This document shows positions 10,316 to 46,353 of a DNA stretch of 64,000 nt, piece after piece. Source of the DNA: Lachnospiraceae bacterium (lineage in GTDB: Bacteria > Bacillota > Clostridia > Lachnospirales > Lachnospiraceae); the NCBI GenBank assembly GCA_017455525.1, contig JAFTAP010000078.1, positions 38,345 through 102,344 of the forward strand. Reading direction: 5' to 3'. Position numbers and translations under genes: made by a program. Numbering within the stretch: position 1 is the stretch's first letter; every line of letters begins with the position of its first letter. The notes beneath the pieces are model-generated. The model made no database searches. It saw nothing but the letters and a program-made list of their open reading frames with translations, and had not been told where the DNA came from.

Positions 10316-10425
10316 GCGCCTTTTAAAACGCTCAAGGAAAGCGTTTCAAAACCCCTTACGGGGTACGCCCCTGCGGGCCTAGGCAAATACGGATCCGAAC
10401 CTGCTGATGCAGTTTCGTCTCCTAT
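10316..10425 (-). repeat. Intergenic hairpin repeat, copy A
   Basis: In the minus orientation it starts TAGGAGACGAAACTGCATCA and contains four hairpins in order. They are 10397-10416 (GAACCTGC/GCAGTTTC), 10367-10378 (GCCC/GGGC), 10351-10364 (ACCCC-TTAC-GGGGT) and 10326-10346 (AAACGCT/AGCGTTT). The order, spacing and joining sequences GATCCGTATTTGCCTAG and CGTACCC match copies at 46241 and 43405, while stem bases differ in a pair-preserving way. It overlaps the stop codon of the upstream permease gene. Confidence 0.8.
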
Positions 10426-11402
10426 TGTTCCTTCGCCATCCTTCTTCTCTTCGCCACGTCTATCATAACGGCTCCGATAAGGACTATGCCTGTGATTATC
10501 TGCTGCCAGTTAGCCTGTAAGCCGACATAGGGAAGCCCGGTCTTAAGGAGCACTATGACGAAGACTCCTGCGAGAGTTCCTATCACGGAACCATATCCGC
10601 CGGTAGCCGACACGCCTCCTACGAAGACGCCGCCGATAGCGTCAAGCTCAAGTCCTGCGCCTGTTCCCGGCTGTACTGTAGGTACGACCGCCGCATAAGC
10701 TATGGCTGCAAGTCCTGCGAAAAGCCCGCAGATAACGTAAGCCATCACATGATAGAACTTAACATTAACGCCTGAGAGCGTCAGAGCCTCTTTATTGCTT
10801 CCTATACCTATCGTATAACGTCCGAACTTCGTATGATTAAGCACGAACTCCATGACAAGGACGAGTATCACGCATACAAGGAAGCCTATCGGGATCTTCA
10901 ATGCATTCCTGCCCGTGCCGAAGGTCAGCTTGAATATTGAATGGAACCAGCCTCCGGGCTGTTTATTCGTAGGCCAGGGCGTAGCCATGACCATCGAGCT
11001 TATTCCTCTCGTTATCATGCAGGTACAGAGTGTAGCAAGGAATGGCGGAAGTCCCATGACTCCGATGAGAGTACCGTTCACTGCACCTACGACTACTCCG
11101 AAGAGCACGCATATAAGCATAGCGAGCGCAACCGGACAGTTATAATCCCTTACAAGCCTTCCCGCAACCAATGCGTAGCACACAAGTCCCGTGCCTATCG
11201 ACAGGTCAACTCCTGCCGTGATAAGCGGAAAAGTAACCCCAATCGCCATTAAGATATCGTAATAAGAGAAATCTAGCATCGACAGTATCGATGAGTATTT
11301 CCTGAACTCCGGACTGAATATCATATAAATGACTACCAGAGCTATGATGACGAGGAGCACTATGAACCTCTGATCTGATAAAAGTGATTTTTTCTTAGTC
11401 AT
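10422..11402 (-). CDS. ABC sugar importer permease, RbsC-like (second permease)
   Basis: The 326-residue protein has about ten hydrophobic membrane segments. It carries the BPD_transp_2 signatures: GVDLSIGTGLVCYALVAG near the N-terminus, GLPPFLATLCTCMITRG, a GSNKEALTLSGVNV cytoplasmic EAA-like loop that contacts the ATPase, and GGVFVGGVSATGGYGSVIGT. This family forms the transmembrane channel of ribose, galactose and furanose-type importers. It lies 11 bp after the ATPase gene. The operon also encodes a second, different permease (12923-13897), so the channel is probably a heterodimer, as in E. coli YtfT/YjfF. Confidence 0.93.
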   Translation of the reverse strand: MTKKKSLLSDQRFIVLLVIIALVVIYMIFSPEFRKYSSILSMLDFSYYDILMAIGVTFPLITAGVDLSIGTGLVCYALVAGRLVRDYNCPVALAMLICVLFGVVVGAVNGTLIGVMGLPPFLATLCTCMITRGISSMVMATPWPTNKQPGGWFHSIFKLTFGTGRNALKIPIGFLVCVILVLVMEFVLNHTKFGRYTIGIGSNKEALTLSGVNVKFYHVMAYVICGLFAGLAAIAYAAVVPTVQPGTGAGLELDAIGGVFVGGVSATGGYGSVIGTLAGVFVIVLLKTGLPYVGLQANWQQIITGIVLIGAVMIDVAKRRRMAKEQ

Positions 11403-11413
11403 TGTCTCCTCCT

Positions 11414-12910
11414 TTAAGCGATGTCCCGCGTTGCCCTGTCCATGATCTTTTCCTGCGTAGCCTCTGATATGTCAAGCTCGCCGGTCTTCTTACCCTCGCA
11501 CATGATGACTATCCTGTCACTCATACGAAGTATCTCCGTCATCTCGGAAGAGATCATTATTATCGATTTGCCCTCTTCCGCAAGCCTGTTCATAAGCTTG
11601 TATATCTCATTCTTCGCTCCGACGTCGATACCTCTGGTCGGCTCGTCGAATATAAGTATGTCGCAGTTCCTTACAAGCCATTTCGCTATGACGACCTTCT
11701 GCTGGTTACCGCCTGAAAGGTTGACTACAAGCTGGTCTGCGCTCGGCGTCTTGGTTGCAAGCTCCTGGATATACTTCTCGGTTATCTTCTTCTCTTCACC
11801 CTTATTTATGAAGATGCCGTTCATGTATTTCTCAAGGGTTGCCATCGTGGAGTTCTCCGTTATGGTCTTCTGCACGACGATACCGTATCTCTTCCTGTCC
11901 TCGGAGAGATAACCTATGCCATGCTTAACGGCATCCTGAGGAGAATTTATCGTGACCTTCTCGCCGTTCACATAGATGTCGCCGCTCGTCTTCGGGTCTG
12001 CTCCGAATAAAGCCCTCGCCGTCTCCGTGCGTCCTGCTCCCATAAGTCCCGAGAAACCGAGTATCTCGCCCTTGCGAAGCTCAAAGCTTACATCCTGAAC
12101 CATCCTGCCGGCATTTAAATGCTCAACCTTTAACACTACCGGTGCGTCCTTCGCAACCTTGCTCTCCGTCTTAGGAGTCTCATAGATTACACGACCGACC
12201 ATCATGTTGATGATGTCTTCCTTCGTGCAGTCCTTCGTGATAAGAGTGCCTACATATCCGCCGTCTCTCATGACCGTGACGCGGTCTGTTATGACCTTGA
12301 TCTCGTCCATGCGATGCGAGATATAAACTATCGCAAGACCTTTCTCCCTAAGATCCCTTATTATAGTGAAGAGATCTTCTATTTCTTTCTCCGTAAGCGC
12401 TGCCGAAGGCTCGTCGAAAATGATGACCTTCGCCTGATGGGATATAGCCTTCGCTATCTCGCACATCTGCTGCTTACCGACCGTGAGGTCGCTCATCTTA
12501 TCCCTTGGATTGATGTCGATATGAAGCTCATCGAAAAGCTTCTTCGATTCCTCGATCATCTTCTTATCATCGATCTTGAAGCCCTTCATGAACTCGCGTC
12601 CGATGAATATATTCTGCGCAACCGTAAGGTCGCCTATCATGTTAAGCTCCTGATGCACTATGACTATTCCTGCGTCCTGAGCCTCTCTTGTATTCGCGAA
12701 CTCGACTTCCTTTCCCTCGAAGGTGATCGTGCCGGAGTCCTTAGTATATATGCCGGTCAGCACTTTCATAAGAGTTGATTTGCCGGCTCCGTTCTCTCCC
12801 ATGAGCGCATGAACCTCGCCGCACCTCACATCGAAGTGAACATGGTCTAGCGCATGAACGCCGGGGAAAGACTTATCTATTTCTTCCATTGTAAGAATCG
12901 CGTCAGCCAT
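11414..12910 (-). CDS. ABC sugar importer ATPase with two nucleotide-binding domains (RbsA/MglA type)
   Basis: The 498-residue protein has two ABC domains in tandem. Domain 1 has Walker A GENGAGKSTLMKVL, signature LTVGKQQMCEIAKAI and Walker B VIIFDEPSAALTEKE. Domain 2 has a degenerate P-loop (GLMGAGRTETARALFGAD), signature LSGGNQQKVVIAKWL and Walker B ILIFDEPTRGIDVGAKNEI. This asymmetric architecture is typical of monosaccharide importers of the CUT2 family, where one polypeptide energises two permeases. It is encoded between the two permease genes with gaps of 11 and 12 bp, so translation is probably coupled. The transport direction is import, given the linked binding lipoprotein. Confidence 0.96.
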   Translation of the reverse strand: MADAILTMEEIDKSFPGVHALDHVHFDVRCGEVHALMGENGAGKSTLMKVLTGIYTKDSGTITFEGKEVEFANTREAQDAGIVIVHQELNMIGDLTVAQNIFIGREFMKGFKIDDKKMIEESKKLFDELHIDINPRDKMSDLTVGKQQMCEIAKAISHQAKVIIFDEPSAALTEKEIEDLFTIIRDLREKGLAIVYISHRMDEIKVITDRVTVMRDGGYVGTLITKDCTKEDIINMMVGRVIYETPKTESKVAKDAPVVLKVEHLNAGRMVQDVSFELRKGEILGFSGLMGAGRTETARALFGADPKTSGDIYVNGEKVTINSPQDAVKHGIGYLSEDRKRYGIVVQKTITENSTMATLEKYMNGIFINKGEEKKITEKYIQELATKTPSADQLVVNLSGGNQQKVVIAKWLVRNCDILIFDEPTRGIDVGAKNEIYKLMNRLAEEGKSIIMISSEMTEILRMSDRIVIMCEGKKTGELDISEATQEKIMDRATRDIA

Positions 12911-12922
12911 TTTATTCCCCCC

Positions 12923-13897
12923 TTAGTTCTTCCTGCGGCGCGCCATGACGTCCGCATAAACGACTACGATAACTATGATTCCTGTAACAATAAGCTGTAT
13001 ATCCTTAGCAAATCCAAGAGCAAGTATGCCCTCCTGCAGCAGCGATATGATAAGAACGCCTATGACCGTGCCGCCTATGGAAGCAAGTCCGCCTGCCATC
13101 GATGTACCGCCCATGACGCAGCCAGCGATCGCTTCGTTATTATACTGATCGCCGTATCCGGGCTGCACCGTCGTATACGCTCCTACGAAGAAGATAGCCG
13201 CTATGCCGACCAATGTACCGCAGATAACGTAAGCGAGCATCTCCCATTTCTTCGTGTCAACACCGGAAAGCCTTACCGCTTCACGGTTGCTTCCTAAGCA
13301 TAGGATGTATCGCCCCGGCTTCGTATTATTAAGGACGACCATACAGATAAACGCCGCTATAAGGAAGATCACAAGTCCTACAGGAAATCCGTTGTAGCTG
13401 ACTAAATTCCTGAACCATCCGTTCACGGGATCGGTTGACAAGGGCCAGCTTATCGATTGTGTCTTCGTGTAAACCGCAGCTATGCCCTTTGCGATATTCA
13501 TCGACGCCATAGACACGATGAAGGGCGGTATCGTCCAATATGAAACCAGATATCCGTTGAATACGCCAAACAGGAATCCTATCAGTATACTCATGATCAG
13601 AGACACGATTACGGGCGCTCCCTTGAACACCATCGTATAGCCCGAGATCAGTCCGCAGCAGAACATGACCGGCCCTATCGAGAAATCAATACCTCCCGTC
13701 GCTATGACGAATGTAACTCCAAGTGACAGGAACCCTAGGAAATACACGTAATTCATAACGCTCATGATACGCGCTTTTCCGAAAAACCCCGGCACCATCA
13801 AGCAGAAAGCCACATACATCAGGATCAGCACACAGAATAATATCACTCTGTTAAATCCTACCTTTCTCACAAAAGGATTCTGTTTGATCTTATCCAC
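12923..13897 (-). CDS. ABC sugar importer permease, RbsC-like (first permease)
   Basis: The 324-residue inner-membrane protein is related to but distinct from the one at 10422-11402. It has GGIDFSIGPVMFCCGLISG early, WTIPPFIVSMASMNIAKGI, the ATPase-contact loop GSNREAVRLSGVDTKKW and GCVMGGTSMAGGLASIGGT, all positions conserved in the RbsC/XylH family. It is the promoter-proximal gene of the operon permease-ATPase-permease-binding protein-fucU. GGAGGG precedes the start, and a LacI-type operator lies ~50 bases upstream. Confidence 0.93.
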   Translation of the reverse strand: MDKIKQNPFVRKVGFNRVILFCVLILMYVAFCLMVPGFFGKARIMSVMNYVYFLGFLSLGVTFVIATGGIDFSIGPVMFCCGLISGYTMVFKGAPVIVSLIMSILIGFLFGVFNGYLVSYWTIPPFIVSMASMNIAKGIAAVYTKTQSISWPLSTDPVNGWFRNLVSYNGFPVGLVIFLIAAFICMVVLNNTKPGRYILCLGSNREAVRLSGVDTKKWEMLAYVICGTLVGIAAIFFVGAYTTVQPGYGDQYNNEAIAGCVMGGTSMAGGLASIGGTVIGVLIISLLQEGILALGFAKDIQLIVTGIIVIVVVYADVMARRRKN

Positions 13898-13948
13898 ATT
13901 TCCCTCCGTTCTTTGAAACTATTGATTTTCGTTCATTTTTTATATAAA

Positions 13949-13960
13949 CGAAACGTTTCG
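13949..13960 (-). promoter_or_regulatory. LacI-family operator (CGAAACGTTTCG) at importer promoter
   Basis: This is a perfect 12-bp palindrome with a central CG, resembling RbsR-type operators. It falls at the predicted transcription start, just downstream of the -10, so binding should block initiation. Identical copies occur at 21215 and 52174. Confidence 0.8.
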
Positions 13961-13966
13961 CCCTAT

Positions 13967-13995
13967 ACTCTACTATAAAAATTGCCCAATGTCAA
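13967..13995 (-). promoter_or_regulatory. Sigma-A promoter of the importer operon
   Basis: On the minus strand a perfect -35 TTGACA (13990-13995), a 17-base spacer and a -10 TAGAGT (13967-13972) lie between the regulator's stop codon and the first permease gene. The operator at 13949-13960 covers the expected start site. Confidence 0.7.
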
Positions 13996-14014
13996 GACAT
14001 TAGCGTGAGCTTAC

Positions 14015-15013
14015 TTAAATTTTTCGTACCGATTCGCCTTCCTTTAATGCTGCATACAGGCTCATCCTCTGGCGCGGAAAATCATTGCCCTCTTCTATTC
14101 TTTTCAGCAGTATCCTCGCTCCTTCCGTGGCTATGTCCTCCATAGGCTGCGCTACCAATGTCAGCTTCGGTCTCATTACCATAGGAAGAATAAGTTCATC
14201 GAAGCCGATAAGCGATATGTCCTCCGGACACCTGATGCCCTCTTCGTTCATCGCCATTATGACGCCAAGGCTTACCTCATAATTCGTCGTAACGACTGCG
14301 GTGGGACGCTCCCTAAGCTTAAGCAGAGCCTTCATGCTGTTATAACCCAGCTCTGTGGAGTGAACGTGAGCCGAATAAATATACTGCTTCGGTACCTTCA
14401 CGCCTGCCTTTTCCATTGAAGAAAGAAAGCCCTTGAAACGTTCGTTCCCCGTATATTCTTCTGAATGGATCACGGCTATGCTGTTATGACCATTGTCTAT
14501 CAAATAATCCGTCGCACGCTCTGCTGCATTTTTATTATCTATCGTGACGCAGTCAAAGGCATCGCTTTCTATCTCGCGGTCAAGCAATACTACCGGTATC
14601 TCCGCTCTCACGGTCGGAGCAAGGACAGCCGGATTATCCGATACCGGCATAAGAAGTATGCCGTCAACCTGCTTATCAAGGCAGAAGCGTATGTTTTCCG
14701 CCTCCTGCTTCGCATCGAGATTGGAATCACAGATCATCATGCCGTACCCTCTCTCATGAAGATAGGCGGACGCATGCTGGAGAAGCACGCCTGAAAAGTT
14801 TATCGCAATATTATGCACTATGAAGCCCACGGTCTTCGTGCGCTTCGTCACAAGAGAACGCGCAGTCTCGTTCGGATGATAGTCAAGCTTCTTTATTGCC
14901 TCTTCAATCTTCTGCCTGTTCTCATCACGGACATTTCCGCCGTTTAGATACTTCGATATGGTAGCGAGCCCCAAGCCGGTCTCCGCCTTTATGTCCTTTA
15001 TCGTAGCTGCCAT
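14015..15013 (-). CDS. LacI-family transcriptional regulator of the sugar/polyol locus
   Basis: The 332-residue protein begins with a LacI helix-turn-helix (TIKDIKAETGLGLATISKYL, residues 4-23) and the hinge LDYHPNETARSLVTKRTKTVG. A type I periplasmic-binding-fold sensor domain follows, with HERGYGMMICDSN, VDGILLMPVS, IPVVLLDRE and ISLIGFDEL. It sits immediately upstream of the importer operon on the same strand. The shared palindrome CGAAACGTTTCG at the importer, the kinase and fucI is the kind of site this family binds, so it is the best candidate regulator of all three. That assignment is inference from proximity. The effector is probably the imported sugar or its phosphate. It overlaps no other gene and lies 4 bp after the unknown gene at 15018. 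Confidence 0.93.
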   Translation of the reverse strand: MAATIKDIKAETGLGLATISKYLNGGNVRDENRQKIEEAIKKLDYHPNETARSLVTKRTKTVGFIVHNIAINFSGVLLQHASAYLHERGYGMMICDSNLDAKQEAENIRFCLDKQVDGILLMPVSDNPAVLAPTVRAEIPVVLLDREIESDAFDCVTIDNKNAAERATDYLIDNGHNSIAVIHSEEYTGNERFKGFLSSMEKAGVKVPKQYIYSAHVHSTELGYNSMKALLKLRERPTAVVTTNYEVSLGVIMAMNEEGIRCPEDISLIGFDELILPMVMRPKLTLVAQPMEDIATEGARILLKRIEEGNDFPRQRMSLYAALKEGESVRKI

Positions 15014-15017
15014 TATA

Positions 15018-15593
15018 TTATTCTATATCCGCCGCATCCTCAGGAAATTTATACCTGAGCGCTTCCTTCGCCGCATTGATGAAAGGCGCAAACTCCTCCG
15101 TAATGCCAAGGTTCTCAGGTATCGTCTCCGTTATTTCCTTTACTTCCTTCGCTATCTTCACGGACCTGCGCTCGTCTGAAATATGCCCCAAGCCCAGCAG
15201 CACGGAATTATACGTCTTATCCTTCTCGCAAAGGTCGAAATAAAAAAGCGAGATATTGAAAAGCTCATCATATAGCGCCTTCTCCCCGACCTCGCCGTAC
15301 TCTGCGCACAGCGGAAACTGCCAGTCGCTTTTTATTCCGCCTATTTCCTTCTGAAGTCTTTTCTTCTCGCCGGGAAGATATATCCGACGCTTCGTGGACT
15401 GCAGATTGACCCAGCCGCGGATGCCGTAATCGATATTCATGCCCTTTTTCTTATCATATCTGGCTTTCCATATCTTCTCCCTTATCTCGAATTCGGGAGT
15501 GCCTCCGTGAGCCTCCCGCTCCCTGTCAAGGATGGCCTTCCTGCGAGCCCTGTCGGTTTCTTTCTTGTATTCTGCAATCCATGCTGCGTCCAT
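15018..15593 (-). CDS. Hypothetical protein, 191 aa, upstream of LacI-type regulator
   Basis: I cannot assign this protein. It is highly charged, starts with Lys/Arg/Glu-rich helices (YKKETDRARRKAILDRE), has no signal peptide or membrane segments and is probably a soluble, mostly helical protein. A central segment (GIRGWVNLQSTKRRIYL) is followed by a helical half. It precedes the LacI-type regulator by 4 bp on the same strand and may share its promoter (15655-15683). No catalytic motif is apparent. Whether it belongs functionally to the sugar locus is unknown. Confidence 0.7.
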   Translation of the reverse strand: MDAAWIAEYKKETDRARRKAILDREREAHGGTPEFEIREKIWKARYDKKKGMNIDYGIRGWVNLQSTKRRIYLPGEKKRLQKEIGGIKSDWQFPLCAEYGEVGEKALYDELFNISLFYFDLCEKDKTYNSVLLGLGHISDERRSVKIAKEVKEITETIPENLGITEEFAPFINAAKEALRYKFPEDAADIE

Positions 15594-15654
15594 TTTTTAT
15601 TACCTCACTATGACTTACTGCAATGCCAAGGTTCTTACATATTCACCAAACCCT

Positions 15655-15683
15655 AGTGTAGCATAGTGCCAACACCCTTACAA
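15655..15683 (-). promoter_or_regulatory. Possible promoter of the 15593 gene and LacI-type regulator
   Basis: On the minus strand TTGTAA (15678-15683), a 17-base spacer and TACACT (15655-15660) form a moderate sigma-A match, 4 of 6 in each box. No CGAAACGTTTCG operator is present here, so the regulator is probably not autoregulated by that site. Confidence 0.35.
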
Positions 15684-15700
15684 AAACCACAAATCTATCG

Positions 15701-17005
15701 TTACTTGATGTACCCGACTGCATAGTTATAGTCGTCAGCCGCATCCATGACGAAATCCATGAGCAGGGCTTTCGCATCCTTTTTCAGCTTGCCGTCACGT
15801 ACCTTCTTGTACTGTATCGGCATGTACTGATAGAGAAGCCCCGTCGGAATCTCCTGCTTATCTATGTTTCTGATAAGCTTCTCAATCCCATCCCTTATCT
15901 CAGGCATAGCGAAATAATAACGGCATCTGTCGGACAGGCTGTAGCGGCGCTTGATCGCTATCTCCTTATCCGTGCCATGATAATACTTCGCCCACTTTGA
16001 AGTGTCGTCAAGCATGAGCTTCTCTAAAAGCTCAGGGAACTTCACCTGATCGCTCTCCGGCACAAGCACCTTCTCGATCTCGCTCATTGCGAAAAGCCCA
16101 TCCCTTAAAGCAAAGGTAAGAGCAGGACCTACCTTAAGTATAGCGACTCCGTCCTCTACCATCTGCTTCAAGCACTCAGGCGGCTGATAATCAGTCGAAT
16201 GCCCCTCCATATATATGCCGTCAAAGGTCTTTATTTTACTGCAAAGCTCCTTCGCATTATCACGGTTATAAGGGAACACTTCATCATCACCGAACTCCAC
16301 GCCCGGCTGCACGACTATCGCTATCACGTTGTCAAAAGCCTTAGGATCAGATATACCCGCAAACTGCTTCTTATATTCCTCAAGAGTCGCAAGCACCGCC
16401 TCCGGCTTCGTGACGCTGATGCTGTCCTCCTGCTCCTGCGCCCCGCCGGGAATAGGAACCTCGCTTCCTATGATAAATACGGGACGCTTCTCGTCAGGAT
16501 TCGACTTCAGCATCTCCTGATAGCTGTCCTCGCAAGCCTGATAAAGCCTCGCTCCGCGCCTTGCCACGGTCTCATCGGTAAGCGGTTTATCCGTAGGATC
16601 GTCCGCAACCCTCATGCTCGTGTCGAGATGGATCTTCTTATAGCCTGCCTCGACAAAAAGCTTCACGAGAGTCTCCGCCTTATCCATAGCGCTCTCCTCA
16701 GGCTCATTCACCCAGGTAAGCGGTCCCAGATGATCTCCGCCGAGCACTATCCTGTCATGCGGATAATCAGCTCTGTCCGCTATCTCATACACGAAATCCC
16801 TGAAATCCGCCGGCTTCATACCTGTATACCCGCCGAACTGATTGACCTGATTAGCCGTAGCCTCTATCAGAATATCAACATCCAGCTCCTTAGCCTGTCT
16901 TATCAGTGCTTCTATCACTATGTCATTCGCCGTGCAGTAAGAAGGCACCCCTGCGATCTTCCCCGCCTTCCTCTCCCGCACCATATTCTGCATTAAGTTA
17001 CTCAT
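15701..17005 (-). CDS. GatZ/KbaZ-family protein (tagatose-bisphosphate aldolase subunit family or sugar-phosphate 4-epimerase)
   Basis: The 434-residue TIM-barrel protein has the family landmarks VPSYCTANDIVIEALIRQA, ILIEATANQVNQFGGYTGM, GGDHLGPLTWVNE, HLDTSMRVADDP, IGSEVPIPGGAQE, EGHSTDYQ and LKVGPALTFALRD. GatZ/KbaZ proteins were first described as the non-catalytic subunit that supports GatY/KbaY. Stand-alone members in other bacteria act as D-tagatose-6-phosphate 4-epimerases. No GatY/KbaY partner is seen in this window, which favours the stand-alone epimerase role, but this is inference. Neighbours are a GatD-like dehydrogenase and an FGGY kinase. Together they could turn an imported polyol or ketose into fructose-6-phosphate. 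Confidence 0.88.
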   Translation of the reverse strand: MSNLMQNMVRERKAGKIAGVPSYCTANDIVIEALIRQAKELDVDILIEATANQVNQFGGYTGMKPADFRDFVYEIADRADYPHDRIVLGGDHLGPLTWVNEPEESAMDKAETLVKLFVEAGYKKIHLDTSMRVADDPTDKPLTDETVARRGARLYQACEDSYQEMLKSNPDEKRPVFIIGSEVPIPGGAQEQEDSISVTKPEAVLATLEEYKKQFAGISDPKAFDNVIAIVVQPGVEFGDDEVFPYNRDNAKELCSKIKTFDGIYMEGHSTDYQPPECLKQMVEDGVAILKVGPALTFALRDGLFAMSEIEKVLVPESDQVKFPELLEKLMLDDTSKWAKYYHGTDKEIAIKRRYSLSDRCRYYFAMPEIRDGIEKLIRNIDKQEIPTGLLYQYMPIQYKKVRDGKLKKDAKALLMDFVMDAADDYNYAVGYIK

Positions 17006-17054
17006 TTATGTTGTTCTCTTTTCTATTAATATTAATTTTGTTCTCAATCGTCAG

Positions 17055-17357
17055 GGCTCGTGGGTGAATATATATTTGCTGAGGGCAAAATATGCCCTTT
17101 GGCATATTTTGAGTGCCGTTTAGACACGCCATGCGTGTCTGGCACCGGGGCGCCCCGGGGTGCTGATGCGCATAGCGCATCAAAACGCACCCGCAAAACG
17201 TCCACTGGACGTTCCGCCACTTCCCGTAAGCACTTAGTTTGAGCGTTAAGATATGCGAGATTTATCGAGCATATTAGCTCAAACTTAGTGCGTCGAGGAA
17301 GTTAGTTCGGACAAGCGTTGGCTCTGACCGAAGCAAATATATATTCACCCACGAGCC
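17055..17357. repeat. 303-bp palindromic element bounded by a perfect 26-bp inverted repeat
   Basis: Bases 17055-17080 are the exact reverse complement of 17332-17357. Inside are further hairpins: 17087-17110 (10-bp perfect stem), 17122-17140 (AGACACGC/GCGTGTCT), a 14-bp self-complementary CCGGGGCGCCCCGG at 17145-17158, 17164-17182 (TGATGCGC/GCGCATCA), 17197-17213 (AACGTCC/GGACGTT), and 17230-17244 pairing 17277-17291 (14 of 15) around ATATGC/GCATAT. No reading frame in it looks like a protein. It fills the gap between the GatZ-family and aldo/keto reductase genes, both minus strand. It resembles a MITE-like or structured mobile repeat; I see no target-site duplication. Confidence 0.9.
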
Positions 17358-17379
17358 AAAAACCACATCCTAAAAATTA

Positions 17380-18396: not shown

Positions 18397-18448
18397 GATG
18401 TTCTCCTTTCATATTTTATAAAAAAATTAATTTAAAAACTATATCGTA

Positions 18449-18482: not shown

Positions 18483-18493
18483 GGACCATAGCA

Positions 18494-27053: not shown

Positions 27054-27100
27054 TGATCTAGGTATTTCTAAAAATTCTTAATGTGAACGGAGGGAGAGAT

Positions 27101-27412
27101 TTGGCAATGGACACCATTGAGAAGATCCGGGAGGCGGAAAAAGCTTCGGACAGCGCAGAGAAGGATGCCGTCGTGGAAGCTGACAGGATAGTCGCCGAGG
27201 CGGAGGATAAAGCCGCTACCCTCAAGGTGAATCTCACGAAAGAAGCAAAAGAAAAAGCCGAAGCGCTGCTTGACGACGCTAAGGCAAAGAGCGACTCCAT
27301 CTTATCGGATGCGAAAGCTGAATCCGAGAACGAGGCGAAGGCGCTCCGCTCCGATATCGGGGCAAAGAAGGACGACGCAATACGCCTCATCCTTGATGAC
27401 TTGACAGCCTAG
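27101..27412 (+). CDS. V-type ATP synthase subunit G/H (peripheral stalk)
   Basis: This ~103-residue, almost wholly helical, Ala/Glu/Lys-rich protein (EKIREAEKASDSAEKDAVVEA...) matches the long coiled-coil peripheral-stalk subunit (NtpF/AhaH) that pairs with subunit E. The most likely start is TTG 27101: GGAGG lies 7 bases before it, whereas ATG 27107 is 13 bases away and the GTG at 27083 precedes the ribosome site. It opens the operon G-I-K-E-C-F-A-B-D. The stop codon is TAG and merges into an intergenic hairpin repeat. Confidence 0.82.
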   Translation: MAMDTIEKIREAEKASDSAEKDAVVEADRIVAEAEDKAATLKVNLTKEAKEKAEALLDDAKAKSDSILSDAKAESENEAKALRSDIGAKKDDAIRLILDDLTA

Positions 27413-27509
27413 GTTTTGAAATTGCATCAGCAATTTCGAAACCGTATTTCGTAGGATTCTGACACATATTTCCTTGATATGTGTCAGAACGCACAGCTTA
27501 TAGGTCATC
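27408..27509 (+). repeat. Intergenic hairpin repeat, copy D (short variant)
   Basis: It begins CTAGGTTTTGAAATTGCATC with hairpin GAAATTGC-ATCA-GCAATTTC (27418-27437) and TTCGAAACCGTATTT, nearly identical to the head of copy C at 43405. The two middle hairpins are absent. The last is a 13-bp perfect stem, 27457-27469 pairing 27477-27489, that keeps the TTCCTT loop seen in copies A and B but has a different stem sequence. It lies between V-ATPase subunits G and I, overlapping the stop codon of G. Confidence 0.75.
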
Positions 27510-27544: not shown

Positions 27545-30033
<2,489 letters not shown>

Positions 30034-39796: not shown

Positions 39797-41619
39797 GTAT
39801 CCTTAGCTCCTATAGGAACGGTATTCGGGTAATATGAGACAATAATATCCCATATATCAGGCATCTCCTGACCCAGCTTCCAGCAGGCTGCTCCGCCAAG
39901 ATCATGCGCTGTCATTACATTAAGCTTAGATGCTATACTCTCCGCATCTTCAAGCCATATGCTGTAAGTCACGCCGTCTTTTTCAAATGAGGCGTAATTC
40001 TGTGCGGTCTCAGCATCCCAGGTCGTCTGAATGCCGTTGTCAGCAATAAATGCCTGCGCATCCCGCATGCCTAAGCTTTCGCAAGAGAGCGTTCCTCCCT
40101 CGTAAGCCCATTTCCTGGTATAGAAAGGTATGGCATTTATCACCTGCGATGCCGGAACTTCCTTAAGTGTATCTTCTATTCCCTGCGTCACAAAGCCCAG
40201 CGATGCGACCGATCCAGCCTCGCTTGATGCGGACGTATGCTCGTCATAACCCATGATCACTACATACTCAGCCACCTTGCCCTGTATGTCCCTCCGATAG
40301 AAGTCCGTGTAATCCTGTGGCACGTAATTGTCGATTGACAATATCAGCTTATGCGCCCTTGTCTGTATCGAAAGCTCCCTTAAGAACTGGGCAAAATCAT
40401 CTCCTGTTTCGCCTTCAAGCTGTTCGAAATCAATATTTATCCCCTGCAGATCGTAGTTTACCGCAGCGTTTATTATATTCTGCTCAAGCAACAGCCTCTT
40501 TGACGTATGCGACAACACTTCATTAGTATCTACCTGATTAGTAAAGTTATCCACTACGCCCCAGACTCCGCATTCCAGAGAACGAGCCGTATATACGTAA
40601 TCCCCGCTTCCGATATCCGATATATTCCCCTCGTTATCAGAAAGGGAAAACCATGTGGGGGCTATCACGTTCATACCCTTAGTCTGGGCGATCACCTCCC
40701 TGACATAGGAATTCGCATCCGGAACAGCTACATTATGAAAGCCGAGAACTACCTTATCTGAGATTAAATACTTCTGATAATTTAAGTCCGCCTCTCCGCC
40801 TCCGGAAAGCTGCACCGTACCTGCCTGTCTTCCTTCTGCGATATCCTTTACCTCGACATAGCCCTCAATCGCCTTATATCTTACCTTAGCCCAGTCTTCG
40901 TTCTCTTCTATGATCCGGACTGTTTCTTTATTATCAAGGTCCATGAGGATAGCTGACTGCTTATCAGCCGACACTCTAAGTGCTGTATCCTCCGCTATCT
41001 CCGCATCAGAAGCCTGTGCTGCTACCGTCACTAAATCTATCCTTGAAGGATCGTCATAAACCTCGTAGGACATAGGCAGGAACCTATTTATGAAAGCAAG
41101 AGAAATATAAACCGCCTCACCCGCAATATAATCCGTGCCTGCTATTCCTTCCGTAGTCTTAGCAGCGTCTGTCACAAGCAGATGCCCTTCGCTGCTGTCA
41201 TAATAAAAATTGTCAAAGAGCTTATTTGCAAGGCTCATAGGGATAAACGGACTGCCGTTCTGTATCACCGCCCTCTCATCTGAGATCTCTCCATTTATGA
41301 TAAGAACCGTCCCGCTCTCAGACGTTACCCCGAAGTATTCAAAAAGATCTGTCCTTTCCTTTGAGCCTCCGAATTCCTTGAAAAGCCCGTTACCCAGTAG
41401 CACTATCGCAATAACCGCAACGACTGCTCCCGCTAATATAAGCGGCAGGCTTTTAGACAATCCGCTCCTTCTGCCCCCTCTGTCATTATCCTCATATCTT
41501 CCGCGGGGCTTCCTTCTCCTCCCGTCTGATGGCCTTCTTCTATATTCCCGGGCGTCCTCACTCTCATAGCGTCTCGCCCGCTCTCTTTTCATCCTCTCAG
41601 TTTCCCGAGTTTCCCTCAT
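39793..41619 (-). CDS. Membrane-anchored GH18-family glycosidase with SH3 domain
   Basis: The ~608-residue protein has an Arg/Glu-rich cytoplasmic N-terminus and one transmembrane anchor (SLPLILAGAVVAVIAIVLLG, residues ~65-90). An extracellular region with a copper-amine-oxidase-N-like part follows (residues ~95-215), then an SH3_3 domain (~230-275: LRVSADKQSAILMDLDN...GYVEVKDI) and a GH18 TIM barrel. The barrel contains the DxxDxDxE-type motif as GINIDFEQLEG plus MGYDEHTSASSEAG. Such proteins hydrolyse or bind N-acetylglucosamine polymers and resemble YaaH/YdhD spore or wall enzymes. ATG 41619 has GGAG at good spacing; the in-frame ATG 41631 has no ribosome site. It starts the operon leading to tsaC-rpiB-comEB. 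Confidence 0.88.
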   Translation of the reverse strand: MRETRETERMKRERARRYESEDAREYRRRPSDGRRRKPRGRYEDNDRGGRRSGLSKSLPLILAGAVVAVIAIVLLGNGLFKEFGGSKERTDLFEYFGVTSESGTVLIINGEISDERAVIQNGSPFIPMSLANKLFDNFYYDSSEGHLLVTDAAKTTEGIAGTDYIAGEAVYISLAFINRFLPMSYEVYDDPSRIDLVTVAAQASDAEIAEDTALRVSADKQSAILMDLDNKETVRIIEENEDWAKVRYKAIEGYVEVKDIAEGRQAGTVQLSGGGEADLNYQKYLISDKVVLGFHNVAVPDANSYVREVIAQTKGMNVIAPTWFSLSDNEGNISDIGSGDYVYTARSLECGVWGVVDNFTNQVDTNEVLSHTSKRLLLEQNIINAAVNYDLQGINIDFEQLEGETGDDFAQFLRELSIQTRAHKLILSIDNYVPQDYTDFYRRDIQGKVAEYVVIMGYDEHTSASSEAGSVASLGFVTQGIEDTLKEVPASQVINAIPFYTRKWAYEGGTLSCESLGMRDAQAFIADNGIQTTWDAETAQNYASFEKDGVTYSIWLEDAESIASKLNVMTAHDLGGAACWKLGQEMPDIWDIIVSYYPNTVPIGAKDT

Positions 41620-41730
41620 CTGCTTCTCCATAAGCCTATGGATTTAATTCTTCCGAATAATGTAACAACTGATTGTACCACACCTTATGTAAACTTGCAA
41701 ATAGAGGTTTCCAGATAACTCATAACCAAT

Positions 41731-41810
41731 CCCGTTCCCTGTGGAGAGTCTGCATGATAAGCGTTTCGGGGCGCCATGACGCAGATTATGAATTACCACA
41801 GGGAACCGGG
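41731..41810. repeat. 80-bp intergenic inverted repeat
   Basis: CCCGTTCCCTGTGG (41731-41744) is the reverse complement of 41796-41810 apart from a single bulged base. An inner TCTGC/GCAGA pairing (41749 and 41781 regions) extends the foldback. It lies between the small gene at 41826 and the GH18 gene, both on the minus strand, and could terminate or process the former's transcript. No T-run follows. Confidence 0.6.
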
Positions 41811-41825
41811 TATTGCAGGGGATAA

Positions 41826-42047
41826 TTATTTAACGTGATTGTACCTTATCTGAACCACCTTATTCTGCTTGTCCGTCACGTAATCAGGCATGTATACCTC
41901 ATCCTCTCTGACCATCATCATGTTGACCACTTCCTGTGGCGTGCTTGGACGGTCTTCGAAGTAAATAGGGACCCCTTCCTGCTGGTATCTCGCAAGCATC
42001 ATCATAAGCTCAACATCAGTGCCATCGCGTCTTCTGCCCTTATCCAT
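41826..42047 (-). CDS. Small hypothetical protein, 73 aa
   Basis: The product MDKGRRRDGTDVELMMMLAR- is Met-rich, soluble in appearance, and ends VTDKQNKVVQIRYNHVK. AGGAG lies 7 bases before ATG 42047, which makes this a better start than the open frame back to 42146. I do not recognise the family. It contains IYFEDRPSTPQEVVNMMMVRE, suggesting a compact helical fold. It is separated from the GH18 gene by an inverted repeat. A cytoplasmic location is likely, and the function is unknown. Confidence 0.65.
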   Translation of the reverse strand: MDKGRRRDGTDVELMMMLARYQQEGVPIYFEDRPSTPQEVVNMMMVREDEVYMPDYVTDKQNKVVQIRYNHVK

Positions 42048-42147
42048 AAGATCACTCCTTTGACTGTCTGTTACGATCCGACCAATAATGGAGGCAATTT
42101 GTCCGTGATAAATATCCGCCTGCATTGGTTGGAATTTAACATTCATT

Positions 42148-42469
42148 ACAGTTACTATAGTGCGACCGGATGATGCAAAAATCTTATAGCTTGAAAATTA
42201 ATTGATTGCATTCATGTCTGGTAAAAACTCTAAGGGAAAAGTCTTCAGATACAGCAAAGGCCGTATGGAAAAAACTGACGCCTCTTTTAAGAGGCTTTCG
42301 GATGGTGTCTAGAATACCATCCGGAATATAATCCCTTTTAATCCACTTGATCGGTCACCTCCTTATCCGCATCGAGGATTTCCGATCGCTCTATATAAGG
42401 CACTATAACCGTTTTTTTAGAGGATTGCAATAGTTTTTTTTATTTTGTTCAAAACGTTAATTCTGTGGA
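42148..42469. other. Gene-free stretch with hairpins and an orphan Shine-Dalgarno / anti-Shine-Dalgarno sequence
   Basis: There is no convincing protein gene here. Features are GCCTCTT-TT-AAGAGGC at 42280-42295 and CGGATGGT/ACCATCCG at 42299-42323. At 42349-42387 a GATCGG/CCGATC stem encloses TCACCTCCTTA (42355-42365). On the plus strand that 11-mer equals the 16S rRNA 3' end; on the minus strand it is a perfect Shine-Dalgarno with no gene behind it. Two T-runs (42414-42420, 42434-42441) follow on the plus strand. A 32-codon plus-strand frame (42214-42312) lacks a ribosome site. A plus-strand small RNA is possible but unproven. Confidence 0.35.
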
Positions 42470-42498
42470 AAATCCCGGGGCGACGAACCCCGGGATTT
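42470..42498 (-). terminator. Terminator of the cellobiose importer operon
   Basis: AAATCCCGGGG and CCCCGGGATTT form a perfect 11-bp stem with a 7-base loop. The final AAA/TTT pairs supply the T-run of the minus transcript. It is 26 bases after the last permease stop codon. Confidence 0.85.
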
Positions 42499-42523
42499 CT
42501 ATCTGCCTTATTGCTTCTATAAA

Positions 42524-43381
42524 TTATCCTTTAACTGCTCCTGCAGAAACTCCTCCGACGATATACTTGGAAAGTATGAGGTAAACTACGATCACCGGGA
42601 AGATAGAGAAGGCGATCATCATGTAAACCTGTCCCATGTCGAACTTCAGGAAGTCCGCAGATCTTAACTGCGCAATGAGGATAGGCAGCGTCTTCTTCTT
42701 ATCTGTCGTAAGCACGAGAGCCGGAGTGAAGTAATTATTCCAGCTTGCCACAAAAGTGAATATAGCCTGTACCGCTATCGCCGGCCTCATAAGCGGAAGC
42801 ACTATGCTGTTGAAGGTACGGAACTCTCCCGAGCCGTCTATGCGAGCCGCCTCAAGCAGAGCCATAGGCATGTTGGACTCCATGTACTGCTTCAAATAGA
42901 AGAACGTAGCAGGTGCCGCTATCGACGGGATTATAAGCGGGATATACGTATCCATCAAGTGCATCTTACCCATCAAGCTTATGAATCCAAGCGCCACGAC
43001 CTGCGTCGGGATCATCATGACTGCAAGGATGAAAGTGAACATGAAGTTCTTTATCTTAAAATCATAAGCATGTATCGCATACGCTGTCATCGTAGAGAAG
43101 TAGGTCGAAAGCACTGCGGAGCATATTGCGATAATAAGTGAATTCCTCATTCCCAAGAGCACCGGCTGTGAGCTGTGCATCAGGTTGATCCAGTTATTTA
43201 CCGCATTGCCTCCGGGAACCAGCGTGAATCCTCTTGCCAGATCCGAGTGACTTCTCGTAGCGTTTATAAACAATATATAAAACCAGAAAAGGCATAAAAA
43301 CGTTATCAGTACCAGTACAATATACGCAATCACCCGTCTTGTCGTGACGCTTGCTCCTGTTTTTACTCTTCTTGTATCCAT
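42524..43381 (-). CDS. ABC sugar importer permease, MalG-type
   Basis: The 285-residue inner-membrane protein has six hydrophobic helices. The binding-protein-dependent transport motif reads EAARIDGSGEFRTFNSIVLPLMRPAI (residues ~190-215, EAA loop that docks on the ATPase) and it ends in the usual YIVGGVSAGAVKG. It is the second permease of a CUT1 (di- or oligosaccharide) importer. The operon order is regulator - binding protein - MalF - MalG. The ATPase is not encoded here; CUT1 systems often share an MsmK-type ATPase encoded elsewhere. The linked GH94 gene suggests cellobiose or cello-oligosaccharides. A reversed hairpin repeat lies just upstream. Confidence 0.94.
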   Translation of the reverse strand: MDTRRVKTGASVTTRRVIAYIVLVLITFLCLFWFYILFINATRSHSDLARGFTLVPGGNAVNNWINLMHSSQPVLLGMRNSLIIAICSAVLSTYFSTMTAYAIHAYDFKIKNFMFTFILAVMMIPTQVVALGFISLMGKMHLMDTYIPLIIPSIAAPATFFYLKQYMESNMPMALLEAARIDGSGEFRTFNSIVLPLMRPAIAVQAIFTFVASWNNYFTPALVLTTDKKKTLPILIAQLRSADFLKFDMGQVYMMIAFSIFPVIVVYLILSKYIVGGVSAGAVKG

Positions 43382-43404
43382 CGTAAGTCTCCTTTTATCT
43401 TAAT

Positions 43405-43520
43405 CTATAGGTTTTGAAATTGCATCAGCAATTTCGAAACCGTAGTTGCCTAGCCCCATAGGGGCGTACCCGCTGAAAGCGGGTTATGAGACGCTTACCT
43501 TAAGCGGCTCATAAGGTATG
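43405..43520 (+). repeat. Intergenic hairpin repeat, copy C (opposite orientation to flanking genes)
   Basis: Read on the plus strand it has four hairpins: GAAATTGC-ATCA-GCAATTTC (43416-43435), GCCCC-ATA-GGGGC (43453-43465), ACCCGCT-GAA-AGCGGGT (43468-43484) and ATGAG-A-CGCTT/AAGCG-G-CTCAT (43486-43512). It aligns along its whole length with copy B (46241-46353) read on the minus strand. Stems 2 and 3 carry paired substitutions relative to B. The flanking permease genes are on the minus strand, so this copy is inverted. Confidence 0.85.
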
Positions 43521-43527
43521 CCCTGTC

Positions 43528-44454
43528 TCAGTTATTGTCCTGGTTGGTCGTGACCTTAAACACCGCAAAGCTCAGGATACCTGTAATGATCAACAGGATG
43601 ACCGACAGTGCGCCCGACATGCCATAGTTCTTATTGAACAGATGCTTATTCAGATACATGATAAGCGTCATGGTAGTCCTGTCCGGAGCACCCTCGCCGT
43701 TAGTCAAGATCTGCGGCACATCGAACATCTGCAGACCGCCGATAAGAGACGTGATCAGCACATATATGAAGATAGGCTTAAGCAGAGGCATCGTCACCTT
43801 CCAAAAGATCTCACTCGCCGTAGCTCCATCTACTTCTGCCGCTTCATAAAGAGATGTATCTATTCCCATCATTCCTGCAAGCAGAAGGATCGTAGTATTA
43901 CCGAACCACATAAGGAAATTCATGAAGCCAACCAATATCCTCGCGCTTCCGGTATTGGACATGAATTTATATGGCTCTGACAATATCCCTAATGAAGTAA
44001 GGATCGAATTGATAGGACCTGAATCGGCAAACAATGTGAAGAACAGCATTGCGAAAGCCGCTGCCATGATAAGGTTAGGCAGATATATAACTGTCTTAAA
44101 AAACCTCTGTCCTTTTATTCTAAGCGAAGGATCTGAGAACCACGCTGCCAGCAGCAAGGAAACGATTATCTGCGGCAGGAAGCCTATTATCCACATAATG
44201 AATGTGTTCTCGGTATACTTCCAGATATCCGCATTAGAGAATAGCGTAACGTAATTCTCCAGGCCGATGAAATTAGGCCCTATCTGCTTCAATCCGGAAC
44301 GATAATTCTCAAAGAAGCTGTAATAAATCGTCGATATAAATGGTATCAACTGGAATACAGCATACACGATGATGAATGGCAGTAAGAAGATATAACCCCA
44401 CCTGTTATACTTCACTACATTAGAATTGCCGCTCTTTTTCTTTCCCCCGTCCAT
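43528..44454 (-). CDS. ABC sugar importer permease, MalF-type
   Basis: The 308-residue protein has six transmembrane helices and the EAA loop (YEAAEVDGATASEIFWKVTM-PLLKPIF), a standard MalF/UgpA-type CUT1 permease. The N-terminus (GGKKKSGNSNVVKYNRWGYIF) is short and cytoplasmic. It pairs with the MalG-type product downstream to form the channel. An internal extended -10 promoter (44545-44553) and a hairpin (44623-44650) separate it from the binding-protein gene, allowing binding protein to be made in excess. Confidence 0.94.
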   Translation of the reverse strand: MDGGKKKSGNSNVVKYNRWGYIFLLPFIIVYAVFQLIPFISTIYYSFFENYRSGLKQIGPNFIGLENYVTLFSNADIWKYTENTFIMWIIGFLPQIIVSLLLAAWFSDPSLRIKGQRFFKTVIYLPNLIMAAAFAMLFFTLFADSGPINSILTSLGILSEPYKFMSNTGSARILVGFMNFLMWFGNTTILLLAGMMGIDTSLYEAAEVDGATASEIFWKVTMPLLKPIFIYVLITSLIGGLQMFDVPQILTNGEGAPDRTTMTLIMYLNKHLFNKNYGMSGALSVILLIITGILSFAVFKVTTNQDNN

Positions 44455-44544
44455 AAAAATTTACCTCATTTCTGCTTTGTATAGTATAAAAGCTAATTTT
44501 GAGCCCTATGGCTTTTTGCCCAAAGCCCACAACAAACTTTTATT

Positions 44545-44553
44545 ATTATAGCA
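44545..44553 (-). promoter_or_regulatory. Internal extended -10 promoter before the permease genes
   Basis: TGCTATAAT on the minus strand is a perfect extended -10, ~90 bases upstream of the MalF-type start and downstream of the hairpin at 44623-44650. It could give the permeases independent low-level transcription. Confidence 0.45.
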
Positions 44554-44622
44554 CATTTACCATAAATGACACATAAAAATAGAAATTCATTGTGAAATCT
44601 GCCCAAACATTTGATTAAAATA

Positions 44623-44650
44623 GGAGCCCACCCGCTATCGGGCAGGCTCC
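44623..44650 (-). terminator. Hairpin after the binding-protein gene (partial terminator)
   Basis: GGAGCC/GGCTCC and CCCG/CGGG stack around a two-by-two internal loop and a CTAT/ATAG loop. TATTTTAATC follows in the minus direction. Its place between binding protein and permeases suits graded expression. Confidence 0.65.
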
Positions 44651-44683
44651 TTAGTCACAGGATTAAATTATCCTCTATTGCTA

Positions 44684-46168
44684 TTAGAATGAAAGCTCAG
44701 GATACTTCTCCTTAACTGCTGTCTGGAAGTTGGAGATAGCCTTGTCATAGTCTACCTTGCCCTCGAAGTAATCCTTCATAGCCGCCTGGAAGGACTCGTT
44801 GCAGCCCTGATCGTAGTCAGAGATATTGCTCATGTCAACCTTCTCTGCGCCGTCGCCAAGCTGTCCATAAGGATTCTGTCCGCCAAGGATAGCGTTTCCG
44901 AATGAAGCATCTGCTGCAAGCTCCTTAAGAAGTGAAGGGCTGTTGACACAGTCTGAATCCCTCTCAACGATCTCCTTAAGTACCGCCTTATCAGTCGTCA
45001 TTGTAAGCATGATGTCCTTAACAAGCGTAGGGTTATCTGTTCCGGTTGCAGCGCAGATCCATGTGCCGCCCCAATAGAATGACTGAGGTCCTACACAAAG
45101 TCCCCAACGGCCTGAATTTGCAACTGAACCCTCTGAATCAGCTGACATTGAGAAGTTGATCAGCCAAGCGGGTCCAAAGTATGCGAATACCTTTCCTTCA
45201 GGGAAGAAGCCCTTGCTCCAGTCATCTGACCAAAGGTCATAAGTATTTGTCTCTTTAGCGTCTACGAGTGCCTTAGAATCCTCAACCCACTTCTCGATGT
45301 TAGCATCGATCTGAACGGTCGTGCCATCAACCCAAGGCTTTGAAACGTTGTTTGAATATACACGATAAGAATCGTTTACGGTTGACTCTACGAAATAGCC
45401 TGCTGCCTTAAGATCCTCAGCGGTCTTGTTGAATGTAGCCCAGTCCTTAACATATTCCTGAACCTCATCAGGCTCCTCTGTTCCAAGCACTTCCTTAGCG
45501 ATGTCTCTGTTGTAGATAAGACCTGCTGAGCATGCCTGCCATGAAAGACCTCTGAGGCTGCCGTTTGAATCCGTAACGATGTCCTGCGTATACTGGAACT
45601 GATCAGCGATGTCTGCTGCAGCTATGCCAAGATCATCCATTGACATTGCAACTGCGGGATCAGCGTTCACATACTTAAGTGCATAGTCAGCCTCTACAAG
45701 GAAGATATCAACCTTATCGTCTGCTGCTGCGCTCTCGTTAGTAGGAAGCACCTCATCAAGGTGATTCTGATATGCATTATCATCGGTAGGAGTAATGATC
45801 CAGTTAACTGTGACGTCACCGATCTTACCCTTGTTGGCATCTGATGCATCAGCCTCATAGCCGGGATAGTGATCTGTCACCCTGCTCTTGAACTCCTCAT
45901 TCCAGCACTGTACGTTGAGCACCTTACCCTCGTCTGATGCTGCAGCTGCTGAATCATCTGCTGCTGCCTCCTCTGCGGGAGCTGCCTCTTCCTCTGCTGC
46001 AGGCGCTGCTTCCTCTGCGGGAGCCGCCTCTTCAGCGGGTGCTGCTTCCTCTGCCGCCGCATCTGCTGCGGGTGCCGCTGCGTCAGTTGCTGCTGCGCCG
46101 CCGCATCCTGCAAGAAGGGTAGCTGTCATTGCTGCTGTAAGCATGATACTTACGATCTTCTTTTTCAT
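44684..46168 (-). CDS. ABC sugar importer substrate-binding lipoprotein (CUT1, cellobiose locus)
   Basis: The 494-residue protein has a lipoprotein signal ending LLAGC (Cys 22) and a ~60-residue Ala/Glu/Pro repeat linker (EEAAPA units). An extracellular type 1 solute-binding fold follows, with WNEEFKSRVTDHYPGYEA, WIITPTDDNAYQNHLDEVLP, YNRDIAKEVLG and WGLCVGPQSFYWGGTWI. CUT1 binding proteins capture di- or oligosaccharides. The divergent cellobiose phosphorylase makes cellobiose the most probable ligand (inference). The linker composition is shared with the unrelated binding protein at 8942-10225. AAGGAGG precedes the start. Confidence 0.92.
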   Translation of the reverse strand: MKKKIVSIMLTAAMTATLLAGCGGAAATDAAAPAADAAAEEAAPAEEAAPAEEAAPAAEEEAAPAEEAAADDSAAAASDEGKVLNVQCWNEEFKSRVTDHYPGYEADASDANKGKIGDVTVNWIITPTDDNAYQNHLDEVLPTNESAAADDKVDIFLVEADYALKYVNADPAVAMSMDDLGIAAADIADQFQYTQDIVTDSNGSLRGLSWQACSAGLIYNRDIAKEVLGTEEPDEVQEYVKDWATFNKTAEDLKAAGYFVESTVNDSYRVYSNNVSKPWVDGTTVQIDANIEKWVEDSKALVDAKETNTYDLWSDDWSKGFFPEGKVFAYFGPAWLINFSMSADSEGSVANSGRWGLCVGPQSFYWGGTWICAATGTDNPTLVKDIMLTMTTDKAVLKEIVERDSDCVNSPSLLKELAADASFGNAILGGQNPYGQLGDGAEKVDMSNISDYDQGCNESFQAAMKDYFEGKVDYDKAISNFQTAVKEKYPELSF

Positions 46169-46240
46169 TTCTTTCCTCCTTAAATAATAATTAAGTAAAA
46201 TGTATGTATAAGGCGTATTGCCTATATACCGTTAGTTATT

Positions 46241-46353
46241 CACGCCTTATGAGCCGCTTAAGGAAAGCGTCTCATAACCCGCCTGAGGCGGGTACGCCCT
46301 ATCGGGCTAGGCAAATACGGATCTGAAATTGCTGATGCAATTTCATCTCCTAT
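46241..46353 (-). repeat. Intergenic hairpin repeat, copy B
   Basis: In the minus orientation: GAAATTGC-ATCA-GCAATTTC (46325-46344), CAGATCCGTATTTGCCTAG, GCCC-GATA-GGGC (46296-46307), ACCCGCC-TCA-GGCGGGT (46277-46293), then ATGAG-A-CGCTT/AAGCG-G-CTCAT (46249-46275). It overlaps the stop codon of the LacI-type gene and fills the gap before the binding-protein gene. It matches copies A and C. Confidence 0.85.

Follow-up and report, generated by a model that had tools for sequence, protein, structure and literature searches.

An apparently unnamed, probably mobile family of small modular structured repeats between genes in Lachnospiraceae

The stretch of DNA analysed here, termed the window, comprises 64,000 nucleotides (64 kb) of contig JAFTAP010000078.1 (assembly GCA_017455525.1) from the 2.7 Mb, 93% complete genome of a Lachnospiraceae bacterium, hereafter the source genome. 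Among its genes, which include permease genes, a gene for a LacI-type regulator and a V_ATPase_I gene, lie four copies of a hairpin-rich repeat (Table 1) that belongs to an apparently unnamed family of small modular DNA repeats between genes, and this family is probably mobile. An earlier note on the sequence had described three full copies and one short copy, and these are indeed present: they can be read in the sequence at those places, and they are the only strong matches in the window (E 1e-29 to 4e-12) of R1, a covariance model of the repeat whose training set included three of the four. Two of these copies are also overlapped, on the opposite strand, by weaker matches (E 0.004 and 0.31). 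Each copy folds better than its dinucleotide shuffles (z -5.2 to -7.7), with 0 of 200 shuffles per copy doing as well. No intrinsic terminator was recognised, in that none of the four window copies has a run of T directly after its last hairpin when the sequence is read directly rather than with a terminator-scan program.

Copies range from about 70 to 130 nt, with a core of 112 nt where it can be measured, and fall into three sub-types that have a common layout of TA(G), a 14-bp hairpin (H1) with loop ATCR, GTA and a four-way junction. H1 is the module common to the sub-types; it measures 14 bp (13 in a second genus described below), its first base is the G of TAG, and its loop is ATCA or ATCG in most copies. 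In full, a type I copy consists of TAG, H1, GTATTT, a four-way junction formed by a closing stem P0 (GCCT/AGGC and variants), hairpins H2 and H3 and a long H4 whose loop is TTCCTT or close to it, and a terminal AAGG. Its characteristic sequences are CCTAG..CGTACCC, while those of type II are GCAGGATTC..GAATCCTGTCC with the end AACC or AACG, and those of type III are GACCAGG..CGTGTCC with the end AAGTC. The four-hairpin layout proposed in the earlier note thus holds for the hairpins, but the stem that closes the last three of them into a junction had been overlooked; similarly, its short variant at 27408 exists but resembles a type II copy minus H2 (compare L047) rather than a shortened copy of the same type. 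An even poorer form, with H1 and H4 only, is found at C47:12396 (L048).

Table 1. Positions of the repeat copies in the window, with structural parts and adjoining genes.
Feature	Position	Strand	Structure	Adjoining genes
Copy A (type I)	10313..10424	-	TAG 10424-10422, H1, GTATTT, four-way junction (P0, H2, H3, H4)	TAG is the stop of a 326-aa BPD_transp_2 permease frame, 10422-11402 (-); next gene a Peripla_BP_4 protein, 8942-10225 (-)
Copy at 27410 (type II without H2)	27410..27497	+	TAG 27410-27412	TAG is the stop of a 109-aa frame, 27083-27412 (+); next gene V_ATPase_I, 27545-29560 (+)
Copy C (type I)	43408..43522	+		antisense between BPD_transp_1 permease genes 42524-43381 (-) and 43528-44454 (-)
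H1 of copy C	43410..43441	+	14-bp hairpin, loop ATCA; begins at the G of TAG
Four-way junction of copy C	43448..43517	+	P0 GCCT/AGGT, H2 GCCCC/GGGGC, H3 ACCCGCT/AGCGGGT, H4 loop ACCTT
Copy B (type I)	46239..46352	-	TAG 46352-46350	TAG is the stop of the LacI-type regulator, 46350-47390 (-); downstream frame of 494 aa, 44684-46168 (-), no Pfam match at 1e-5

The pair-preserving stem changes that the earlier note had seen in the window prove to be strong covariation among type I copies. In a MAFFT alignment of 18 copies (17 full-length ones from the source genome, L025-L041, and one of the relative G021) with 42 named pairs, 96.0% of cells are paired, compared with a shuffled mean of 83.0%, and 23 of the 42 pairs are altered on both sides (shuffled mean 13.2), amounting to 94 double-changed cells (shuffled mean 28.5). 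None of 500 shuffles attains the observed pairing, double-changed pairs or double-changed cells. The shuffle control ignores the relatedness of the copies; a control that allows for it, in which the register is slid by 1-3 columns, agrees and cuts pairing to 31-49%. The outermost P0 pair is the weakest, being unpaired in 7/18 copies, and the other three hold in 18/18. Given no structure as input, RNAalifold returns the same fold with three P0 pairs and double changes in 21 of 39 pairs, and for type III (16 copies) it returns a four-way junction with 30 of 43 pairs double-changed. The closing pair of P0 in type II is complementary in 12/12 aligned copies, as C-G in eight and G-C in four, a count that omits seven type II-like copies, all from relatives, whose H3 is longer. 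Since copies scattered over the genome retain the structure, what is selected could be the spread of the element and not the regulation of its neighbours.

Which strand folds? Of 80 copies that measure 100 nt or more, 52 give a better RNA fold on the element strand than on the other (Wilcoxon P 8e-6, with copies that are related and not independent). A set of 66 distinct H1s contains 22 G-T cells against 5 A-C cells (P 0.0015), although 13 of the 22 fall at one position and 9 are left without it, and the 42 type I pairs hold 24 G-T and 6 A-C cells, with 11 of the 24 in one column. These asymmetries lean towards one strand, as RNA or single-stranded DNA (ssDNA), being the folded one, and go no further than that.

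The source genome holds many more copies than the window does. R1 returned 39 matches at E <= 1e-5 and 51 at E <= 1, with E-values that are rough, and these counts are low since R1 missed at least one type III copy (C47, about 14150-14280). At L125 6653-6778 there is a type III copy that R1 missed, and many partial matches to the same stretch in G020, G018 and G058 mean that type III is more abundant than counted. Occurrence among relatives is patchy. R1 matches are present in 11 of 41 genomes: 11 of the 25 that represent the genus (the source genome included), but 0 of the 16 that represent other families of the order. Across the family, 2 of 299 genomes have matches, which is a lower bound with 12 candidates scored per genome; these are the source genome and G204, a member of another genus with at least 12 copies of the type I kind. 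A pattern search of genome contigs gave one named record, the Lachnospiraceae metagenome-assembled genome RGIG4889 from roe deer rumen.

Searches for a known family or a source gave the following. Rfam yielded no match at the four window copies at the gathering threshold, nor at the copies in 14 further loci at E <= 1, in line with the earlier note, whose author knew no named family of this layout; the five Rfam matches within those 14 loci are three tRNAs, a plastid family antisense to one such tRNA and a chance match to a snoRNA. A literature search of titles and abstract openings found no description of the repeat family, which may have been published under another name. An origin from plasmids or phages was considered and rejected, as copy C was unmatched in plasmids or phages and patterns for each sub-type had 0 matches in viral contigs. 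No autonomous parent was found in the source genome with the H1 pattern, whose 34 matches (2 in a reversed control) include, outside the R1 hits, chance, degenerate or type III-like ones, as judged by the matched letters alone and, for one beside L043, by its surroundings.

The rationale for regarding the family as mobile is based on occupied and empty sites. For 4 of 5 copies tested, no element is present at the orthologous site in any relative aligned, and the fifth is common to one relative. The site of copy B is empty in 8/8 relatives, which were chosen because both flanks match; among the relatives aligned, the first C100 copy is absent in 2/2 (G021, G056), the second in 1/1 (G021), and the minimal copy on C47 in 5/5 (G021, G056, G018, G058, G020). 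These C100 and C47 alignments, together with those of a tRNA-Leu site, used 11 of the 18 stretches retrieved. Four copies of G020 show no difference over the 112 nt that start at TAG, beyond which they diverge; they lie in different places and have differing left flanks, all ending in TA, and identical copies in different places indicate a mobile family. Copies also occur in tandem pairs (L029/L044, L075/L080) and head to head (L030/L053 and a pair in L094).

The tRNA-Leu site is more complex. In two species a type I copy begins directly at the 3' end of the tRNA-Leu(TAA) gene (L039, L055). This site is occupied in G000 and G021, holds no element in the aligned G018, G056 and G022, and shows unrelated sequence in G005. 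Our first idea was compensatory change at one ancestral insertion. This was undercut by the finding that the G021 copy, identical to the G000 copy at this site in 81/116 positions, is closer to another G000 copy (103/115). Independent insertion or conversion at this site is possible.

The insertion sites themselves were tabulated for 83 copies, after 6 of 89 rows were dropped as truncated or doubtful. Of the first three bases, T is present in 66, A in 80 and G in all 83; ATAG is seen in 44 copies and GTAG in 8, and before the TAG there is a weak left-flank preference for A-T-G-Y-A (41, 37, 43, 72 and 55 of 83, respectively). Scored at whichever of seven offsets does best, a right-end TA is present in 26 of 72 classed rows (11/29 type II, 9/18 type III and 6/25 type I), against 1/16 expected by composition, where the offsets were picked after the fact, some rows are near-identical copies, 11 of the 83 copies are unclassed, and at least L027, L042, L056 and L077 (type II) and L199 (type III) have wrong anchors. 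Many type III copies carry RYAG at this end.

Three of the window copies touch a stop codon, as the earlier note had stated (Table 1), and this habit extends to the source genome. There, 13 of 43 copies start exactly at the TAG stop of a same-strand upstream frame (P 7.6e-9), where the null fraction of about 0.04 comes from the window, in which 11 of 276 non-coding-or-stop TAGs are stops; this null assumes that every non-coding TAG is an equal target and uses one 64 kb window and a simple gene caller, 3 of its 11 TAG stops are themselves copies, and some of the 43 rows (L049, L087, L090-L093) are weak or partial. Five further copies overlap a frame end in the other two frames, three ending at +9 and two at +10. 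The TAG frame is thus used by 13 of 18 copies that begin with H1 at a same-strand frame end (P 8.5e-4 versus one third), a set that does not include L087, a copy without H1 that overlaps a frame with its end at +32.

With gene calls from a simple codon-score caller, 29 of the 41 copies that have a called upstream gene are sense to it and 12 are antisense, and two copy pairs share a locus. Outside the window, 20 of 75 listed neighbouring frames were scanned. They include FliS, a FeoB_C/Gate protein and an SRP54-type GTPase, SepF and 3-dehydroquinate synthase on the two sides of one copy, and a gene pair for the complex I 30-kDa and 49-kDa subunits with a copy between them. A general link to sugar transport was rejected: 3 of the 20 concern sugar uptake or use (alpha-amylase, BPD_transp_1, SBP_bac_1), and all three are at the C100 locus. 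The earlier note had placed three copies in sugar-transporter operons; three do lie in ABC-transporter clusters, whose sugar specificity is predicted, but most neighbours examined elsewhere in the genome are unrelated. The copies tested are mostly insertions missing from orthologous sites in relatives, and the copies are not fixed features of sugar operons. The interpretation given in the note is sustained for the existence of further copies, their strong covariation and the lack of an Rfam match, and is incomplete as to the wider modular family of three sub-types.

No enzyme has been tied to the family by a search limited to Y1_Tnp (PF01797), to the exclusion of other HUH families, IS630-type transposases and reverse transcriptases. 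Y1_Tnp matches are present in 24 of 48 genomes of the genus, among them the copy-bearing G020, G006 and G010. They were sorted by score and length into shorter and longer forms, which we take to be IS200-like genes and genes resembling REP-associated tyrosine transposases (RAYTs; REP, repetitive extragenic palindrome), and 20 loci, a part of all matches, were taken (15 RAYT-like and five others). The flanks of RAYT-like genes, which could be viewed in 12 of the 15 loci (three are without an open frame), bear repeats of a GGGACG type in 11 of 12 by eye, with the exact sequence GGGACGGTTC in six loci. Mobilisation by a RAYT was rejected: the 93% complete source genome has no Y1_Tnp match, R1 detects no copy at the 20 loci of relatives, and RAYT-like genes are flanked by a different repeat in 11 of the 12 loci viewed.

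We consider it likely that the copies are small non-autonomous mobile repeats, each joining an H1 of constant form to an exchangeable folded body and inserted at TA(G) by an enzyme acting in trans. The body would mostly be a four-way junction, and the TA(G) site would often be the terminal TAG stop of a gene. Spreading would need a folded single strand, either ssDNA or RNA, and we propose that pairing is kept by compensatory changes for this reason. A copy in sense orientation would become the tail of the message upstream of it, which it may stabilise, or it may uncouple the expression of genes in an operon. Structure, covariation, dispersal, empty sites, identical copies in different places and a site preference are directly observed, while mobilisation in trans, recognition of a single strand and an effect on messages are inferred. 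Several results weigh against this proposal. Apart from the limits of the stop-codon comparison given above, terminal inverted repeats are weak (6.7/12 matching positions versus 5.4/12 in shuffled sequence, over 76 copies), no clear target duplication is seen at the empty sites examined, and the filled tRNA-Leu site in two species means that some copies may persist or re-insert. Furthermore, Y1_Tnp has 0 matches in the source genome, and even with E up to 10 allowed, R1 picks up no copy at any of the 20 Y1_Tnp loci taken from relatives. A bolder and rather doubtful extension of the proposal is that these repeats represent an element class known by fold rather than by sequence, in which a constant-form hairpin at a TAG stop and an exchangeable cloverleaf-like body would be moved as a folded single strand by an enzyme family not yet tied to such repeats; insertion at stop codons would then leave genes unbroken.

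How might movement occur? One hypothesis is cut-and-paste transposition of a miniature inverted-repeat transposable element (MITE) with a TA target, such that the TA of TAG and the right-end TA form a 2-bp target duplication of the kind with which IS630/Tc1-type transposases move their elements. The left T (66/83) and A (80/83), the right-end TA in many rows, the four identical G020 copies with TA on both sides and the weak similarity of the ends in 76 copies are all compatible with this, but the inverted repeats are weak, at least half of the rows lack the right TA, and such a mechanism would not be expected to maintain internal hairpins by compensatory change; we regard it as possible, if on the unlikely side. 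A similarly tentative standing is given to single-strand transposition of a REP-like kind by an HUH enzyme, with insertion 3' of NTAG, recognition of H1 and no target duplication. This hypothesis accommodates the weak left consensus ATGYA followed by TAG, the position of the hairpin right at the junction, the RYAG that many type III copies carry on their right, and an empty site that reads CCCTGAAG in G021 where the filled one reads CCCTGCAG and then the element; moreover, GTAG REPs are described as likewise often supplying the TAG stop codon of a neighbour (PMC3733652). However, Y1_Tnp, the HUH family searched, is without a match in the source genome, RAYT-like genes of the genus bear a different repeat in 11 of 12 loci, and H1 includes the G of TAG among its paired bases, unlike the REP tag, for which an unpaired state is described.

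Two further hypotheses place RNA at the centre. Were the repeats cis-acting regulatory or processed operon RNAs selected by the host, for message stability or differential expression, the 29 of 41 sense orientations, the folding preference for the element strand and the wobble bias of H1 would fit, the last with 13 of its 22 G-T cells at one position; the 12 antisense copies, the unrelated neighbours and the absence at orthologous sites make this improbable. It is equally improbable that the repeats spread through RNA, as bacterial elements resembling short interspersed nuclear elements (SINEs) copied by a reverse transcriptase. Although the RNA-like fold leans to wobble pairs on one strand, no tail is seen, and wobble pairs are tolerated in ssDNA too.

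Among known systems, the family resembles GTAG-tagged REPs and pneumococcal BOX repeats. GTAG-tagged REPs and their paired form, the REPIN, mobilised by RAYTs (PMC3733652, PMC3116915), are similar in having a hairpin beside a tag that contains TAG, stems that change in a complementary manner with GT pairs, head-to-head and tandem pairs in several orientations, and a TAG that often is the stop of the flanking gene. They differ in that their tag is unpaired, whereas ATAG predominates here and H1 pairs from the G of TAG onwards; in that they are palindromes of 20-40 bp, whereas the present copies of about 70-130 nt have a 14-bp stem, one to three further hairpins and, beyond H1, a body of about 80 nt with a four-way junction; and in that they have RAYTs, whereas PF01797 has no match in the source genome and R1 has none at the 20 Y1_Tnp loci. 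The main text of PMC3733652 does not contain the words Firmicutes or Clostrid-. Since tag, size and RAYT all differ, we class the repeats as a new family of structured interspersed repeats, a member of neither REP nor BOX.

The pneumococcal BOX element, as described in PMC3049150, is likewise modular (boxA-boxB-boxC) and interspersed, varies in length with module number and has a predicted fold if transcribed; it is considered parasitic. Unlike the present family, it comes from another host and has inverted ends and target duplications, whereas here such ends are weak and no clear duplication is seen at the empty sites; the two were compared by layout alone. The same source gives about 107 bp for the repeat RUP. 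RUP and other TA-target MITEs resemble the present family in size and in the TA at the ends of many copies, and differ from its weak inverted ends and strong internal covariation. Elements derived from IS200/IS605 have a guide sequence 5' of the hairpin foot, but H1 here starts at the G of TAG, which would leave no room for a guide between target and hairpin if the element ends are as drawn; the source genome has no Y1 transposase match, though G020, G006 and G010 have Y1 genes. Structured RNAs of Rfam have a similarly conserved fold but, as noted, no match at the copies.

Inside single genomes, the family supplies a natural collection of variants that preserve one fold. It also has an insertion habit tied to stop codons, and it is a test case for whether structure in small repeats of bacteria benefits the element itself or its host. 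The repeat alters the 3' ends of genes and seems to break assemblies in some Lachnospiraceae.

Some minor observations concern individual loci. At L038 1501-1614 (-), an ATG in the 3-dehydroquinate synthase frame follows the 3' end of the copy (AAAAGGAGG) at a distance of about 9 nt, and AAAAGGAGG, partly paired in P0, may serve as the ribosome-binding site of this frame. At L045 1426-1610, a type II copy (+) begins at the 5' end of a tRNA-Arg gene on the opposite strand. The GGGACG-type repeats near RAYT-like genes (GGGGACGGTTC and variants; L136-L138, L140-L146, L148) resemble CGTC-class REPs, here in a Lachnospiraceae genus. In G204, 7 of 12 copies (L198, L200, L202-L204, L207, L209) are followed by an extra module of about 300 nt, and L208 ends early. 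This module has inverted ends (TTCTGGAACACCCACTA / TAGTGGGTGTTCCAGAAA) and 110 matching pieces, its inner segments differ in orientation between copies as if flipped, and several G204 contigs stop in or near it. In the window itself, a Clostridiales-1 RNA (RF01699, 113.6 bits) is located at 8790-8950 (-).

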